This document shows, piece after piece, positions 39,587 through 46,022 of a DNA stretch of 64,000 nt. The notes beneath the pieces were generated by a model that worked only from the letters and a program-made list of their open reading frames with translations, made no database searches and was not told the DNA's origin. Positions within the stretch are counted from its first letter, which is position 1. The number at the start of each line of letters is the position of its first letter. The stretch is from Sphingomonas sp. 28-66-16. Lineage in GTDB: Bacteria > Pseudomonadota > Alphaproteobacteria > Sphingomonadales > Sphingomonadaceae. Both the position numbers and the translations under genes were made by a program. The stretch covers positions 21,344 to 85,343 of the forward strand of contig NCGF01000014.1 of assembly GCA_002281485.1 (NCBI GenBank), given 5' to 3'.

Positions 39587-40972
39587 CTATTCGCGATAGG
39601 GCAGCGTCAGCACGAAGCGCGCGCCCTGCCCGGGCGCGCTGTCGACGGTGACGTCGCCGCCCATCGCGCGCGCCAGACGGCGGGCGATGTAGAGCCCGAG
39701 GCCGCTGCCACCGGGCTCGCTGGTGTCGACGCGTTCGAATTTTTCGAAGATGCGTGCCTGATCCTCGATCGCGATCCCGCGTCCCTGATCGGCGACGACG
39801 ACGGCGGCCATCGGTCCGTCGCGCTCGGCGCGGATCCAGACCATGGCTTCGTCGGGCGAATAGCGCACGGCATTGCCGATCAGATTGACCAGAATCTGGA
39901 GCGTCCGGCGGAACTCGCCCGTTGCGGGCAAGGCCTCGTCGAGCGGCGGCCGGTCGATCCGGACGTTGGCCGCGGCGGCGCGCACCTGCAGCAAGCCGGC
40001 GGCGCGGCGCGCGATATCGGCAAGGTCGATCGGCTCGGCCGCAACGACGAAATCAGGCCGCTCGATCGCCTGCAGATCGACGAGATCGTCGACCAGGCCG
40101 AGCAGATGGCGCCCGGCCGTCGCGATATCGGCGGCGTAGTCGGCATAGTCCTGCCGCAATGGCCCTTCGGCCTTGGCGTTGATGCTGTCGGCATTGGCGA
40201 TGATCCGCCCCAGCGGCGCGCGCAGCGCGCGATCGAGCCGTTCGCTGAACGCCTCGGGCAGCCCGGACCGCGTGACCGCCACCCCGGTGGTCGCCGGCTT
40301 GTCGACCGGATCGACCATCAACGTCGCCCCGACAAGCCCCGCGAAACCGCCACTGGCATTGAGCCGCGGCGTCGCCGACAGCAGCACCGGACGACCGGTT
40401 TCACGGATCATCGCGGGCTGATCGTCGAAGCGTTGCCGCATCGCCAGCGCGCCGAGGATCGGGAACATGCCGGTATCGGCTTCACCGAGGATGAAGAGCC
40501 GGGTCAGCGGCTGCCCGAGCAACGCCTGGCTGTCAAAGCCGTGCCGTGCGCCGGCGATGATCGAGATCTGGGTGAGGCGCAAGGCGGCGTCGGTTTCCCA
40601 TGTCCAGGCAGCGGCACTGCGCAGGAAATCGCGCGCGCGCACGTCTTCATCGGCGGTCGGCTGCCACGCGGTGCGGGTCTTCCAGCCGCTGATCGCCAGC
40701 CGGACGACATCGGCGGCTGGATCCGGCTCGGCCCGGACCCACATTTCGATATCGTCGTCACCATCTGCCGCGACGATCGAGCGCGACACGAGAATGCCGA
40801 GCCGTCGTGCCAGTCGGACGAGCGTGGCCAAGGGCGGCACCGCGATCGGTGCCCCGATCGCGCCGCCGGCGCGCAGATTGAGATCGTGCAGCCGCAGATC
40901 GGCCTCGACCAGCCGGCCGTCATAGCCGACCACGCCGCGCACCACGGGAAGCTGCGGATCGATCGCGTTCAT
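39587..40972 (-). CDS. Histidine-kinase-like protein lacking the phosphoacceptor His
   Basis: 461 residues, no membrane segment. A PAS-like region spans about residues 110-222. It is followed by a dimerisation helix pair (241-304) and an ATPase domain with N-box NLIGNAVRYSP (363-373), G1 DQGRGIA (395-401) and G2 GGSGLGLYIARRLA (421-434). At the place of the usual SHELRTPL the protein reads DRALRAPL: R248 replaces His and A249 replaces Glu. The rest of that domain is well conserved (GRHLLGLVDDLVDLQAIE). It is therefore likely a pseudokinase, an ATP-binding scaffold or a phosphatase-type partner, comparable in principle to DivL, whose His is Tyr. Its ATG overlaps the stop of the DUF2336 gene. 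Confidence 0.85.
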   Translation of the reverse strand: MNAIDPQLPVVRGVVGYDGRLVEADLRLHDLNLRAGGAIGAPIAVPPLATLVRLARRLGILVSRSIVAADGDDDIEMWVRAEPDPAADVVRLAISGWKTRTAWQPTADEDVRARDFLRSAAAWTWETDAALRLTQISIIAGARHGFDSQALLGQPLTRLFILGEADTGMFPILGALAMRQRFDDQPAMIRETGRPVLLSATPRLNASGGFAGLVGATLMVDPVDKPATTGVAVTRSGLPEAFSERLDRALRAPLGRIIANADSINAKAEGPLRQDYADYAADIATAGRHLLGLVDDLVDLQAIERPDFVVAAEPIDLADIARRAAGLLQVRAAAANVRIDRPPLDEALPATGEFRRTLQILVNLIGNAVRYSPDEAMVWIRAERDGPMAAVVVADQGRGIAIEDQARIFEKFERVDTSEPGGSGLGLYIARRLARAMGGDVTVDSAPGQGARFVLTLPYRE

Positions 40973-42084
40973 GATCGCTCGGCTCTGGCCAGCGCCACCA
41001 CGGCTGCCCTGAGATCAGGGTGGAGCCGGAGCGACGCCAGCGCTTCGCGCGCGTCACCATGCGGAATTGCGGCAATCGCATCGAGCCGATCGGCGAACAC
41101 CTCGACATCGCGGCGCGGATCGGCTTCGCAAAGGGCCAGCCCGATCGTCGCGATCATCGGGCGATCGAGCCCGACAGCGCGCAGCGCCAGCCAAAGCCGG
41201 TCGGCAACGGGATCAATGACGATTTCACGCATCGTCTCATAGCCAAGACCGAGCGCATGCGCGAGCAGCGCGATGAACAGCGACGGCCGGCGATCGCCGA
41301 GTGATTCGGCAAGCAAGCCGGGCAGTTCGTCAGCGGTCGCGGCAAGGGCCGTCGTCAATCGCATCGCCGCCGCTTCGAGCCGTTCGCCCTCGTCGTGCGC
41401 CGCCAGGCTGCGCAGTGCCGCCTCGGTGATCGCGCGATCGAGCGTCTCTTGCGCCGGGCCGGCGCTGCCCGTCAGCTGATCGCGCAAGATCGCGGCCGTC
41501 CACCAGACCAGTCGATGATGCAATTCGGCGGGCAGATCGCTGCGCGGCGCAGTCGGTGCGTCGCCGGCGTTGTGGCGCCGCGCCTCGGCGATCATCAGCG
41601 CGGAGGCCGACGCAGCGACGATCGGGTCGCGATGGCTGGTCAGCCGCACGAGCAGGCTCGGTCGCTCGGCGGTCTCGCCGCCCGCCAGCGGCAGGGCGTC
41701 GCCGATCGCCTCCTGCTCGACCCGCGCAAGCAGTTCGCGGATCAGGCCGGCGTCCTTGATCAGACCCGATCGTTCCAGCCGATCGAGCACCGCAAGACTG
41801 CCGCTGGACAGCGCGATCGCCAGATCGGGCTCGCCGCGCCCGACGAGGAGGCGACCGCCATAATGACGCAATTCGCTTTCGATCGACGTCACGATCATCC
41901 GCAGCAGGCGCGACAGCGCGCCGCGGAGGCGTTCGTCGAGCTGCGCTTCTGCGGGCACGAAAAAGAGATCGATCGCGGCACGGATGCGATCGTCGGCGCG
42001 CACGTCATCAGCTGCTCCGCGCGCGAGCAGGTGGCTGGCGCCAGCGTGGACACCATCGTTCATGTCGCCTTGGTCGATCGACAT
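40969..42084 (-). CDS. DUF2336 family protein
   Basis: 371 residues, soluble, almost entirely helical with repeated Ala/Leu/Arg-rich helices (HEAT-like appearance) such as DRAITEAALRSLAAHDEGERLEAA, GLLAESLGDRRPSLFIALLAHALG and RPMIATIGLALCEADPRRDV. The pattern fits DUF2336, an alphaproteobacterial family without assigned biochemical role that tends to occur with signalling genes. It overlaps the kinase-like gene by four bases (ATGA), so the two are very likely made together. Confidence 0.7.
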   Translation of the reverse strand: MSIDQGDMNDGVHAGASHLLARGAADDVRADDRIRAAIDLFFVPAEAQLDERLRGALSRLLRMIVTSIESELRHYGGRLLVGRGEPDLAIALSSGSLAVLDRLERSGLIKDAGLIRELLARVEQEAIGDALPLAGGETAERPSLLVRLTSHRDPIVAASASALMIAEARRHNAGDAPTAPRSDLPAELHHRLVWWTAAILRDQLTGSAGPAQETLDRAITEAALRSLAAHDEGERLEAAAMRLTTALAATADELPGLLAESLGDRRPSLFIALLAHALGLGYETMREIVIDPVADRLWLALRAVGLDRPMIATIGLALCEADPRRDVEVFADRLDAIAAIPHGDAREALASLRLHPDLRAAVVALARAERS

Positions 42085-42094
42085 GTTTTGAGAC

Positions 42095-43300
42095 CTAGGG
42101 ATTTCTCGTTAAATTCCCGCTAAGGCTTTCGCGAAGTGCTTCGATCGCCGCCGCGAGCGACGCCGTCGCATATAGCGCGGTCATCATTAGACCGGTGAGC
42201 GTTTGGCCTGCAATCGCGAAGGGCAGGAGGATCAGCGGATAGGCGATCGGCGTGCCCCACCAGGATTGGCGAATACGATCGTCGCCCCCGCGCTCGACAA
42301 AGCCGGCGATCACCACCAGCGCCACCGCGACGCTCGTCGCGCTCAGCGTGCCTTCGGAACGGCTGACCGCAATGCCGAGCGCCAGCATCGTCAGTCCCGA
42401 ACCCCCGAGGATCGCGCCGCGCTGAAGGTGCACGAGCGCGGTCTCGTCGCGCATCCAGGCAAGCGCCCCCCCGATCGACAGCCCCGCCATCGCCACCAGC
42501 ACGAACGGCAGGCCGAGCCAGCCCCAGCCCCATCCAGTGATGCCGATCCCCGCCGCGAGCAGCGCCGAACTGCCCGCCGCGATCGCCCAGCCGGGCACCG
42601 ACCGCGCGACGATGCGCGGCAATACTAGCCGCGCCAGCGGGGCGATCAGATAACGATCGACCCAGGGAATGCGGTTCGAGACATGGCCCGTGAGCACCAC
42701 CTCGTTGCGCGCGCGCAACCGAGCGGCATCGCGCTCGACGCCATGCCCCGCGCGCGCCTCGCCCGAGGGCAGGCGCAGATGAACCGCGCCGGATTGCGCG
42801 GTCACCCTGAGCAACGCCGACTGGAAATCATAGTCTCCCGGCAGATGGGCAACATCGGTGATCCGATCGGCGCCGACCCGCGCCATCCCCGCCCAGATCG
42901 CGTCTTGCCCCACGCGCTCGAGGCCCGGCAGCGCATCGACCTCCCCCGTGACCAGCAACGCATCATCACCCGCGCCGGCCAGCAGCGCGAGGATCGTCTC
43001 GTCGGTCACGAGGCCGTCGGCAATCACCAGAACATGCGCGAGGGGGTGGAGCTTCGCGGCGGCCTCGCTGGCCGATCGCACGATATCGACCGAGCCACCG
43101 CGCCGGCCGATGCGGTTGACGGCGCCGACGAGCTCGGGCGTCAGCCGCGCGACGACGACGATGATCTGCCCGGCCCCGGCCGCAATGAGCAGCCGCGCCT
43201 GAAACTCGATCAGCGTCCCGCCGGCGAAGGGCAAGGTCTCAGCGAGCATGTCAGGGCGATCAACCGCGTCTTCGGTCGCAAAAATCAGTCCGGCAAGCAT
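42095..43300 (-). CDS. Membrane protein with degenerate nucleotidyltransferase-like N-terminus
   Basis: 401 residues. The first ~230 look like a Rossmann-type sugar-nucleotide or MobA-like transferase (MLAETLPFAGGTLIEFQARLLIAAGAG, QIIVVVARLTPEL, HVLVIADGLVTDE), but the glycine-rich NTP-binding signature at the very N-terminus is not evident. The C-terminal ~160 residues hold about six hydrophobic segments, starting at WAIAAGSSALLAAGIGITG. It is 10 bp upstream of the DUF2336 gene in the same direction. No defined function; catalytic activity is uncertain. Confidence 0.55.
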   Translation of the reverse strand: MLAGLIFATEDAVDRPDMLAETLPFAGGTLIEFQARLLIAAGAGQIIVVVARLTPELVGAVNRIGRRGGSVDIVRSASEAAAKLHPLAHVLVIADGLVTDETILALLAGAGDDALLVTGEVDALPGLERVGQDAIWAGMARVGADRITDVAHLPGDYDFQSALLRVTAQSGAVHLRLPSGEARAGHGVERDAARLRARNEVVLTGHVSNRIPWVDRYLIAPLARLVLPRIVARSVPGWAIAAGSSALLAAGIGITGWGWGWLGLPFVLVAMAGLSIGGALAWMRDETALVHLQRGAILGGSGLTMLALGIAVSRSEGTLSATSVAVALVVIAGFVERGGDDRIRQSWWGTPIAYPLILLPFAIAGQTLTGLMMTALYATASLAAAIEALRESLSGNLTRNP

Positions 43301-43342
43301 CGCATGGCGCTTAAGCGCTCAGGCCGCTCTTGGCAAAGGGGC

Positions 43343-43636
43343 TCAGAGGCGTTCGATCGCCCGGCGCAGCCGTTGCAGCGCGCGCTTGTCGCCCACCGGC
43401 AGATCGCTGGTCTCGTCGGCGAGTGCCATCAGACGAATCGCCCCGAAGCTCGCGCCGAGGCCCTTCAGCCGCAACGCCGCCGCGCGCCAGTCATCGACGC
43501 TGTCGGCGTGTTCGAGCAGATCCAGCGAGCGCTGCGCGCTATCGAGAAACGCCATGCGGAGTTCGGCGATCAGCGCGGGTTCATCGCCCACCGCCGCCAC
43601 CAGAGCCGCATCTATTGCACCGGGATCATATGCCAT
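43343..43636 (-). CDS. HPt-like domain protein lacking the phosphoacceptor His
   Basis: 97 residues from ATG 43636 (MAYDPGAIDAALV); a TTG seven codons upstream is the alternative. The four-helix histidine phosphotransfer fold is suggested by ALIAELRMAFLDSAQRSLDLLEHA, RAAALRLKGLGASFGAIRLMALADE and the C-terminal helix. The usual AHxLKGxxxxxGA motif is present except that Leu (L55) stands where the phosphorylated His should be. It may bind response-regulator or kinase domains without transferring phosphate. It is the first gene of the minus-strand group reaching the kinase-like gene. Confidence 0.65.
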   Translation of the reverse strand: MAYDPGAIDAALVAAVGDEPALIAELRMAFLDSAQRSLDLLEHADSVDDWRAAALRLKGLGASFGAIRLMALADETSDLPVGDKRALQRLRRAIERL

Positions 43637-43718
43637 CGACCCAAAACTAGGGTGCAATGCTTAACGCATCGTTATTCTATTCGCTTTGCCGCGCCCGGAA
43701 TCGTGGTAAACGAAGGCG

Positions 43719-46022
43719 ATGACGGGGGGATCGCGCATCATAGACATCAGGCCGGGAACCGACGAGTCATCGTCGGTCGACGACGCCGTGCCGATCGGCG
43801 CGCTGCCGAAGAACGAACCGATGGCGATCGATCCCGATGCGCAGCCTGGCGATCTGTCGCGCGGTACCGCCGCCAGACTTCTGCCCGCGCTGGCGATCAT
43901 CGCGCTGCTCGGCTGGTTCGGCGGCATGGGCTGGGTGGTCTGGCCGAGCGTGGCGGCGGGGCTCGCCCCGGTTGCGCTGATCGAACTGATCGCCGCGCTG
44001 TGCGTGCCGCCGGTGCTGCTCGGCATCTTCTGGCTGCTCGCGCTCCGGACGAGCCATGCCGAGGCCCGCCGCTTCGGCGCGACCGCGCGACAGATGCGCG
44101 CCGAGGCCGCCGCGCTCGAGCGGACCATCGCGATCGTGTCGCGCCAGATCGAGGACAATCGCGCGCGGCTCGCCGAACAGACCAACGCGCTGATGGCGAT
44201 GGGCGACGGCGCATCAGAGCGGCTCGCGGCGATCAGCAACGGCATGGCGCATGAGATGGCCGCCGCCGCCGATCAGACGCGGTCGCTCACCGCCTCGACC
44301 ACCGCCGCCCAGGCCAGCCTGAGCGTGCTGCTCTCGTCGCTGCCCCGCGCGCACGCCGAGACCAGCGAGATGGCCAAGACGCTCGAGGCCACTGGGCTCA
44401 CCGCGGGCGAGCATGCCGCCGCGCTCGACGCCCAGATGGCCGCGCTGGCCGAGCGGGGCCGCGAGGCCGAGGGCGTCGCCGGCGGCGCCGCCAAGAAGCT
44501 CGCCGCGCACATCGCCCGGATGGAGGCGACCAGCGAGACCGCCGGCGCCCGCCTCGAAAGCGTGACGGCGTCGATGTCCGACGCGGTCGACGAACTGCTC
44601 GGCCGGACCGCCGGCGCGGTCGACGAGGCCCGCAAGGGGATTACGGCGCAGGGCGAGGCGATGCTGGCGATGCTCGAGGCCAATCAGGCCGCGCTGAGCC
44701 GCGCGAGCAGCGATTCGGTCGATGCGCTCGCCACCCGGATCGCCTCGATCGAAACCGTGATCGATCGCATCGCCGCGCGGATCGACGACCAGCGCCAGGC
44801 GAGCGAGTCACTCGCGGTCGGGCTCGATGCGAGCTTCACCGCCGTCGAGACCAAGGTCGCGTCGTTCCACGACCGGGGCATTGAGCGCACCCAGACGCTC
44901 GCCGCCTCGATCAGCGCGCTCGGCGGATCGGCCGATGCGATGACCGAAGCGCTCAGGGCGGGCGACGACATGGCCCGCAAGGTGATCGCGACTAGCGAGG
45001 ACCTGCTGACCTCGCTCGACGCCGCCGCGCGCGAGATCGACGAGACGCTGCCCGAGGCGCTCGCGCGGCTCGATGCGCGGATCGGCGAGAGCCGGAGCGT
45101 CGTCGCCGGCGCCAAGCCCGAACTGCTCGCGCTGGTCACCGCCGCCGAGAGCACCCATGACGCGATCGAGGCGATCGCCGGGGTGATCCAGGGCCAGCGC
45201 GTCACGCTCGATCAACTCTCGAAGCTGCTGATCGACACGCTGGCGACCGGTCGCGAGCGCGCGAGCGAGATCGGCGAGACGCTCGACGCGACGATCGCGC
45301 ACACGCATGATTTCGCCGAACAGGCCGCCCCCCGGCTGGTCGAGGCGCTGATCCGCGTGCGCGACACCGCCACCGCCGCCGCCGAACGCGCGCGCGAAAC
45401 GCTGGCGACGGTGATCCCCGAGGCCGCCAAGTCGCTCGAACTGGCGAGCGCGCAGGCGATGCAGCGCGCGGTCGGCCATTCGGTCGAGCGCCAGATCAAC
45501 GCGATCACCGACGCCGCCGACGCCGCCGTCGAGGCCGCCGCGCGCGCCTCCGACCGGCTGACGCGGCAGATGATGACGATCGCCGAGACGAGCTCGCTGG
45601 TCGAGAACCGGATCGACGATGCCCGCGCCGAACGCGAGAAGGCCGACAGCGACAGCTTCGCGCGCAAGGCCTCGCTGCTGATCGAATCGCTCAATTCGGC
45701 GTCGATCGACATCGCCAAGAGCTTTTCGAGCGACGTTTCGGACAGCGCCTGGGCGGCGTACCTCAAGGGCGATCGCGGGGTCTTCACGCGCCGCGCGGTG
45801 CGGCTGCTCGATTCAACGGACGTCCGCGAGATCGCGCGGCTCTACGACGACGACGGGCCGTTCCGCGAGCAGGTCAACCGCTATATCCACGATTTCGAGG
45901 CGATGCTGCGCACGATCCTCGCCCAGCGCGACGGCGCGCCGATGAGCGTGACCCTGCTGTCGTCGGACATGGGCAAGCTCTATGTCGCGCTGGCCCAGGC
46001 GATCGAACGATTGCGGGCGTAG
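43719..46022 (+). CDS. Two-TM membrane protein with very long coiled-coil domain
   Basis: 767 residues. An acidic N-terminal ~50 is followed by two membrane segments (about 52-72 and 82-108). Then comes ~550 residues of almost continuous Ala/Glu/Arg heptad-like helix (ARQMRAEAAALERTIAIVSR, VERQINAITDAADAAVEAAA). A conserved-looking globular C-terminal ~95 residues begin at SDSAWAAYLKGDRGVFTRRA and end ...SSDMGKLYVALAQAIERLRA. The architecture (two N-terminal TM helices plus large coiled coil) recalls the polarity factor TipN and apolipoprotein-like alphaproteobacterial proteins, but no homology is claimed. Divergent from the HPt-like gene across an 82-bp gap. Confidence 0.7.
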   Translation: MTGGSRIIDIRPGTDESSSVDDAVPIGALPKNEPMAIDPDAQPGDLSRGTAARLLPALAIIALLGWFGGMGWVVWPSVAAGLAPVALIELIAALCVPPVLLGIFWLLALRTSHAEARRFGATARQMRAEAAALERTIAIVSRQIEDNRARLAEQTNALMAMGDGASERLAAISNGMAHEMAAAADQTRSLTASTTAAQASLSVLLSSLPRAHAETSEMAKTLEATGLTAGEHAAALDAQMAALAERGREAEGVAGGAAKKLAAHIARMEATSETAGARLESVTASMSDAVDELLGRTAGAVDEARKGITAQGEAMLAMLEANQAALSRASSDSVDALATRIASIETVIDRIAARIDDQRQASESLAVGLDASFTAVETKVASFHDRGIERTQTLAASISALGGSADAMTEALRAGDDMARKVIATSEDLLTSLDAAAREIDETLPEALARLDARIGESRSVVAGAKPELLALVTAAESTHDAIEAIAGVIQGQRVTLDQLSKLLIDTLATGRERASEIGETLDATIAHTHDFAEQAAPRLVEALIRVRDTATAAAERARETLATVIPEAAKSLELASAQAMQRAVGHSVERQINAITDAADAAVEAAARASDRLTRQMMTIAETSSLVENRIDDARAEREKADSDSFARKASLLIESLNSASIDIAKSFSSDVSDSAWAAYLKGDRGVFTRRAVRLLDSTDVREIARLYDDDGPFREQVNRYIHDFEAMLRTILAQRDGAPMSVTLLSSDMGKLYVALAQAIERLRA

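Follow-up and report, generated by a model that had tools for sequence, protein, structure and literature searches.

Remains of a phosphorelay in Sphingomonas that may persist as a non-phosphorylating signaling assembly

The window, the 64,000-nucleotide stretch of Sphingomonas sp. 28-66-16 DNA that was analyzed, contains a five-gene locus that is well supported as the descendant of an intact phosphorelay taken apart stepwise. The parts that remain were probably retained as a non-phosphorylating assembly that signals by binding. The assembly would be built around a two-TM coiled-coil protein and is probably gated by ATP, through a mechanism that we infer. A non-phosphorylating regulatory assembly had been proposed in a sequence-only reading of this DNA, and it is the best reading because the loss of phosphoacceptor histidine is near-universal in both the histidine kinase (HK)-like and the HPt-like protein and the neighborhood is conserved. 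Single pseudokinases are known already; in this relay the loss of chemistry extends over several successive parts, and the ATP site is kept. The survival of signaling proteins without phosphate becomes directly testable. A literature search on the locus found nothing relevant.

Organization and conservation of the locus

The five open reading frames of that reading were all present where it had placed them (Table 1), including the 4-bp overlap of the HK and DUF2336 genes, which was also found in 32 of 35 relatives.

Table 1. Genes and features of the locus
Feature	Position	Strand	Basis or remark
HK-like protein (461 aa)	39587..40972	-	Phosphoacceptor lost, ATP-binding domain intact
DUF2336 protein (371 aa)	40969..42084	-	Pfam PF10098, 4e-17; 4-bp overlap with HK gene
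Membrane protein	42095..43300	-	Nucleotidyltransferase-like head and CDP-alcohol-phosphotransferase-like membrane part without catalytic motif
HPt-like protein (97 aa from ATG)	43343..43636	-	All-helical model; family profile match to PDB 2ooc
Coiled-coil protein (767 aa, two-TM)	43719..46022	+	Divergent from HPt gene
ATP-binding N, G1, F, and G2 boxes (residues 363-426)	39695..39886	-	Conservation in 83 HKs
R248 codon at phosphoacceptor His site	40229..40231	-	H in 5/5 order-level orthologues
L55 codon at HPt phosphoacceptor site	43472..43474	-	Same-genus HPt comparison
Conserved C-terminal domain of coiled-coil protein	45696..46019	+	Alignment A1; class-wide

The HK, DUF2336, and membrane protein genes were contiguous in all 35 same-genus loci fetched. 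The DUF2336 gene was split over two frames in genome G015, and the membrane protein gene of G024 was broken by a contig end. In 25 of the 35, the fetched stretch also contained the coiled-coil gene, and the HPt gene adjoined and diverged from the coiled-coil gene in every same-genus genome in which an HPt gene was found (29/29). No HPt gene was detected in 8 of 37 same-genus genomes, and the HPt-like protein is therefore dispensable for the function of the rest. The HK-DUF2336-membrane protein genes and the divergent HPt and coiled-coil genes were apart in 9 of 35 same-genus genomes. The locus is thus made up of two modules that are together in most genomes, and a single five-gene unit was rejected. 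The missing HPt genes and the separation of the modules count against the best reading.

Among 60 family loci from outside the genus, all five genes could be recognized in 28; the 60 are part of 93 such genomes with a match to the membrane protein, mostly the best-scoring ones. The grouping put forward from the sequence therefore held as a conserved neighborhood but not as one unit. The dN/dS ratios were 0.02 to 0.34 in ten same-genus pairs (five of the ten for the HPt gene, eight for the coiled-coil gene). A chance grouping was rejected on the grounds of this selection and of synteny within the genus and beyond it.

The term DUF2336 appeared in no paper of the literature searched, and a Pfam search of the window membrane protein gave nothing significant. 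Its orthologues in G145 and G077 had PF01066 matches over the cutoff, and a search with the window protein (P0003) reached the G145 protein at 3.4e-14. The family profile, which includes four motif-bearing rows, matched 6wm5 (1.8e-6), 4o6m (2.7e-4), and 4mnd (0.018) in the PDB, a likeness to the CDP-alcohol phosphotransferases phosphatidylinositol(-phosphate) synthase, AF2299, and IPCT-DIPPS. The D..DG..AR motif of such enzymes and the loop typical of nucleotidyltransferases are both absent from the window protein (model pLDDT, 93.7). The D..DG..AR motif was found in none of 35 same-genus rows, which are without G012 and G024, and in 5 of 60 rows from the rest of the family. By homology, the membrane protein is related to the CDP-alcohol phosphotransferases, and it has lost their catalytic motif. 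A motif-bearing relative in G145 adjoins a myo-inositol-phosphate synthase gene.

Phosphoacceptor sites of the kinase-like and HPt-like proteins

The HK-like protein matched HATPase_c in Pfam (1.8e-27), and its HisKA match (2.5e-4) fell under the HisKA cutoff. One weak PAS match was obtained (E value, 0.15), and no hydrophobic transmembrane segment was found. R248 is in register with the phosphoacceptor histidine of all five order-level orthologues aligned. The same column in 36 same-genus HKs, among which that of G012 is not included, held R (16), Q (7), T (5), K (4), S (3), or G (1). Histidine was thus absent from 36 of 36 same-genus HKs, and it was absent from 46 of 47 in other genera of the family; the 47 lie within 6 kb of the membrane protein gene on its own strand and leave out, from the 60 loci, G145 and G112 (both with histidine intact) and 11 loci with no HK found nearby. 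Histidine at the site in G168 counts against the best explanation. The N, G1, F, and G2 boxes of an active HisKA histidine kinase are retained, with N363 kept in 82 of 83 HKs and eight other ATP-site positions in all 83. DHp segments around the site (LR.pL and Y..YA.dIa.AgRHL) were kept in the genus.

The HPt-like protein is listed with a TTG start at 43657, which adds 7 residues relative to the ATG start, and its Pfam Hpt match (6.4e-3) was under the cutoff. L55 is in register with the histidine of all 12 outside relatives aligned. The site held L (12), W (9), A (7), or F (1) in 29 same-genus HPts, and histidine was absent from all of these and from 35 of 37 in other genera of the family; its presence in G094 counts against the best explanation. 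The HPt fold is indicated by an all-helical model with five helices (pLDDT, 92.8) and by a family profile, with histidine in 11 of its 37 rows, whose best PDB match was the histidine phosphotransferase 2ooc (7.4e-12), presumably ShpA of Caulobacter. The window protein lacks the phosphoacceptor of 2ooc, and its sequence alone had no PDB match above chance. Near the lost histidine, L60 and F64 were present in all 28 same-genus rows and in none of 12 outside rows. Position 58 was K or R in 26 of the 28 same-genus rows, and position 59 was G or S in all of them. Rows L082, L087, L089, and L167 were excluded from alignment A4, and G052 from A3.

AHP6-type pseudo-HPt proteins of plants, like the window HPt, have the HPt fold without the histidine and are derived from active HPts. 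Unlike them, the window HPt is bacterial and is encoded beside a membrane coiled-coil gene, at a locus whose kinase also lacks histidine.

The phosphoacceptor losses noted from the sequence are therefore real and near-universal among relatives. Neither R248 nor L55 is invariant, since both sites take many residues (very rarely histidine), and special chemistry of an invariant Arg or Leu was rejected.

Intact relatives of the relay

Elsewhere in the order, the kinase and HPt of other families retain the histidine, as do those of a few genera within the family itself. At the order level, histidine was present in 5 of 5 HKs examined (from five of 24 genomes), and 11 of 20 loci had an HPt with histidine (HPt1) next to the coiled-coil gene. 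Within the family, histidine was present in the HKs of G145, G112, and G067, which lie outside the count of 47, and in HPt1 of G145, G116, and G100. In 17 of 20 order-level loci, the coiled-coil gene had a receiver gene and a second HPt gene (HPt2) next to it as a pair. The receiver was detected at 1e-30 in 20 of 24 order-level genomes and in none of the 37 same-genus genomes. HPt2 was strong in the same 20 order-level genomes and in 4 of 119 family genomes, with none convincing in the 37 of the genus. Outside the order, one of 13 class-level stretches of 2 kb (L291) had HPt1 near the coiled-coil gene. The relay was already unusual before its loss, since most receivers (17/20) carried Asn in place of the phospho-Asp where histidine was intact, which counts against the best reading.

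Extant genomes hold the intermediates: a receiver with Asp, one with Asn, loss of receiver and HPt2 with histidine kept, and loss of histidine. Intact orthologues had been named as evidence that would make the grouping a matter of chance. They were indeed found, but their state looks ancestral, which strengthens the case. Because intact orthologues and the receiver and HPt2 genes occur in related families, the losses were probably not independent accidents, as had been supposed, and are more likely parts of one dismantled relay. Linked loss is not shown statistically, since the losses fall on one lineage and the independent-pairs test had a single pair.

On this well-supported history, the ancestral set was a PAS histidine kinase with a DUF2336 protein, together with HPt1, receiver, and HPt2 genes divergent from the two-TM coiled-coil gene. 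On the lineage to the window, the genes for the receiver and HPt2 were lost, as were the histidines of the kinase and HPt1, and the motif-less membrane protein is encoded in the operon. The remaining genes stayed under purifying selection.

Proposed assembly and its alternatives

Binding, rather than phosphate transfer, is the probable mode of action because the remaining proteins, including the ATP site, are under strong selection without phosphate-carrying residues. The kinase-like dimer would still bind ATP and shift its shape with nucleotide and PAS input, and the tightly linked DUF2336 protein may carry this change on to the membrane. With its former phosphotransfer face now apparently hydrophobic and very conserved, the HPt-like protein could serve as an adaptor that docks onto the coiled-coil protein or a receiver domain but passes no phosphate. 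It is a tentative extension that a full relay became phosphotransfer-free in most of the Sphingomonas family, with an ATP-driven GHKL switch made from the HK and a hydrophobic docking adaptor made from the HPt, which together would control a membrane coiled-coil scaffold.

DivL of Caulobacter has an N-terminal transmembrane segment. According to the available text of PMC4211667, it is a pseudo-histidine kinase of many alphaproteobacteria that senses DivK~P, with several PAS domains, a conserved Tyr, and weak binding of an ATP analogue; it shares with the window HK the kinase fold, the N, G1, F, and G2 boxes, and the lack of the phosphoacceptor. On this precedent, the dead DHp and dead HPt might bind the phosphorylated receiver of another pathway and report to a TipN-type polarity scaffold, and the conserved DHp surroundings and the K58/R and G59/S positions are consistent with this. 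However, Tyr is kept in DivL homologues with one stated exception (PMC4211667, same text), whereas the site here is variable, and Tyr was seen in none of the 36 HKs of the genus and none of the 47 from the rest of the family. The several PAS domains and N-terminal segment are likewise not seen. Unlike the DivL gene, the one here has a linked DUF2336 gene and, in many cases, a linked gene for an HPt that lacks histidine. DivL was one of many comparable PDB matches, orthology to it is not supported, and the likeness to DivL and TipN suggested earlier was not confirmed. The DivJ-PleC-DivK system is, in the available text of Brilli et al. (PMC2877005), degenerate or wholly lost in Sphingomonadales. 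A phospho-sensor of this kind seems rather doubtful.

It is slightly less likely still that the intact catalytic domain phosphorylates a different residue or, within a heterodimer, the histidine of a second kinase. The ATP-site residues kept in HKs without histidine are also compatible with such a kinase acting in trans, and the available text of PMC9491836 reports heterodimers formed by two native HKs, ChrS and HrrS. However, the pseudokinase in that text lacks the ATPase domain rather than the histidine, and heterodimers of the truncated protein were without significant evidence there. In addition, no partner HK was identified, receiver and HPt2 were undetected in the genus, and the remaining HPt has no acceptor.

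Decay of a lost relay into leftovers without joint function, held together by drift, would fit the stepwise loss of partners, the missing HPt genes, and the separable modules, but it is very improbable given the dN/dS ratios, the conserved ATP site, the conserved 4-bp overlap, and synteny beyond the genus.

In the preferred reading, a retained binding assembly, the scaffold would be the coiled-coil protein. TipN has two N-terminal transmembrane segments and a long coiled coil, and the window protein is likened to it by architecture: a hydrophobic stretch at residues 49-112 has room for two transmembrane segments, and the coiled coil was judged from sequence. PDB searches with its C-terminal domain gave generic helical matches and no known structure. 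The locus offers a handle on DUF2336 and on this class-wide coiled-coil family, whose C-terminal domain was found in 57 of 142 class genomes, including two of the same genus. A DivJ model scored over its cutoff in none of 30 genomes of the class; the two highest-scoring, G181 and G316, carry the domain, which says nothing about kinship with TipN. In a tree of the domain, G100 split first, followed by G112, before G145 and the remainder.

Composition of the locus

The five ORFs, the 4-bp DUF2336/HK overlap, and the residues R248 and L55 described in the sequence-only reading for the histidine kinase-like (HK) and HPt-like proteins were all confirmed in the window sequence, which derives from a 3.14-Mb genome (51 contigs, 86% complete). 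The ORFs on one side were read as presumed comEC, gltX, and gltA and those on the other as RNase J, coaX, and birA, names that served solely as synteny markers. The coiled-coil protein, DUF2336, and membrane protein were each matched in all 37 same-genus genomes (that of the window and 36 others) and the HPt in 29; membrane protein relatives among named genomes (n = 7) were all Sphingomonas.

The HK, DUF2336, and membrane protein genes were contiguous in all 35 same-genus loci fetched; the 4-bp overlap recurred in 32/35 relatives, and the coiled-coil gene lay within the locus in 25. In nine of the remaining 10 the operon was apart from the divergent HPt/coiled-coil gene pair, and in the other, G024, a contig break cuts through the membrane protein gene. 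Because they separate in nine of 35 loci, the operon and the divergent pair are two modules. The neighborhood is kept beyond the genus, with all five genes recognized in 28 and the coiled-coil gene in 56 of 60 family loci (picked by having a membrane protein match). Across the family, the membrane protein was matched in 95 of 119 genomes.

The coiled-coil C-terminal domain was present in 57/142 class genomes (55/140 outside the genus). The two TMs and long coiled coil of the window protein recall TipN, in a comparison of architecture alone. Among 14 named control genomes DUF2336 occurred in Caulobacter vibrioides only, and the term was absent from the literature searched. The DUF2336 gene of one same-genus genome, G015, is in two frames, from either an assembly error or a recent break.

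Phosphorelay genes in relatives and their probable order of loss

Orthologues with intact His residues were searched for and are present in the order-level set (24 genomes from other families of Sphingomonadales), where they appear to show the ancestral state. All five order-level HKs examined beside DUF2336 carried the motif SHELRTPLNAIIGF, and HPt1, the orthologue of the window HPt, adjoined the coiled-coil gene with its His in 11 of 20 coiled-coil loci. A receiver and a second HPt (HPt2) were found at the coiled-coil gene in 17 of these loci and the complete HPt1-receiver-HPt2 set in 10. Genome-wide searches at 1e-30 detected the receiver in 20/24 order-level and 0/37 same-genus genomes. 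HPt2 matched strongly (3.6e-55 or better) in the 20 receiver-bearing genomes and more weakly in two more; it was strong in 4/119 family genomes (a match of 2.9e-4 in G091 being taken as chance) and had no convincing match in the 37 same-genus genomes (G036, at 8.7e-4, likewise taken as chance).

The phospho-Asp position of the receiver, a column placed by eye from known motifs, was N in 17 and D in 3 (loci L171, L176, and L179) of 20 aligned sequences. The N-bearing protein is a predicted pseudo-receiver, widespread beside HPts that have kept His. This receiver, flanked by HPt1 and HPt2, carries a conserved tail, YFGPDRRR.

Gene arrangements in five family genomes, and coordinates of other features
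Genome	Feature	Locus and coordinates
INTERMEDIATES (in-family genomes)		
G116	HPt1(His)-receiver-HPt2-membrane protein, consecutive	
G100	coiled-coil gene divergent from HPt1(His)-receiver-HPt2	
G112	intact HK with DUF2336; receiver-HPt2-membrane protein; HPt1 not found	
G067	HPt1-like stretch (two frames), HPt2 (long frame), membrane protein, DUF2336, intact HK	
G145	intact HK and intact HPt1; position between gltA and RNase J, as in the window	
Other features		
G145/G077	neighbor genes of the membrane protein	L224 5546-8835; L206 5589-8918 and 10378-11220
G015	DUF2336	L134 9286-10397

Intermediate arrangements were found within the family (see the table; the G067 genome is 86% complete and 7% contaminated). 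HPt2 was not found genome-wide in G145, nor the receiver in its locus. In a tree built by a quick method from 90 rows and 216 columns of the coiled-coil C-terminal domain and rooted on the 20 order-level rows, G100, on a long branch, split first and G112 next (starred support, 95 and 98, respectively), and G145, the group G063+G098+G172, and the other 64 rows showed no mutual branching order. Going by these intermediates and the branching, the receiver and HPt2 were probably lost earlier than the His residues. An independent-pairs test on loss had one pair and no power, the losses lying on one lineage.

Phosphoacceptor and ATP-binding sites

R248 and L55 were not invariant. Within the genus, the His column was R16 Q7 T5 K4 S3 G1 in 36 HKs, all of which had also lost the Glu directly after it, and L12 W9 A7 F1 in 29 HPts. 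In other family genera it was P18 A8 R7 Q3 E2 D2, with V, T, K, S, N, G, and H once each, in 47 HKs, and L11 W10 M7 Q3 H2, with Y, F, E, and V once each, in 37 HPts. The single HK with H was that of G168, within a degraded context; the two HPts with H were those of G145, in which the HK is also intact, and G094, in which the HK has V. The His of the G094 HPt (L191) and G168 HK (L229) is present although near relatives have lost it, and may reflect reversion or chance. The HK site was Pro in 18/20 rows of one starred tree clade (L219-L247) and varied freely elsewhere.

Of nine ATP-binding residues, eight were kept in 83/83 HKs and N363 in 82. In ten comparisons of same-genus genomes, two of which entered twice (dS, 0.20 to 1.28), dN/dS was 0.02 to 0.34; every comparison covered HK, DUF2336, and the membrane protein, eight of the ten covered the coiled-coil gene, and five covered the HPt. 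Near the lost His of the HPt, L60 and F64 were present in 28/28 same-genus rows versus 0/12 outside rows and S63 in 28/28 and 7/12, and every one of the 28 same-genus aligned rows had L, W, A, or F at position 55; the old phosphotransfer face looks like a now permanent binding face.

The analysis supports the reading of the locus as a relay that was dismantled and whose surviving parts remain under selection. The remaining proteins would act at the membrane as an assembly that is gated by ATP and works through binding. Alternatively, the HK-like protein, with its conserved ATP site, may be a trans-acting kinase, or the locus may be a DivL-like sensor of another receiver. Brilli et al. (PMC2877005) describe DivJ-PleC-DivK as degenerated or completely lost in Sphingomonadales.

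The membrane protein

The membrane protein family profile matched the phosphatidylinositol-phosphate synthase 6wm5 (1.8e-6), and the G145 and G077 proteins matched PF01066 over cut-off. The D..DG..AR motif was kept in G145, G077, G098, G172, and G063 and was absent from 35/35 same-genus and 55/60 other family rows. Because the motif is missing from a protein with CDP-alcohol phosphotransferase-type matches, it is the third protein of the locus to lack the chemistry presumed for its ancestor. Since the motif was not found in G112, G116, and G067, where relay genes are present, its decay is uncoupled from that of the relay. Pfam assigned the G145 neighbors, in the same chromosomal slot, to a myo-inositol-phosphate synthase, a nucleotidyltransferase, and a Wzi gene; G077 has ORFs similar by eye and one more CDP-alcohol phosphotransferase (Pfam). 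In both genomes these genes are a predicted inositol-lipid or capsule cluster adjoining the relay.
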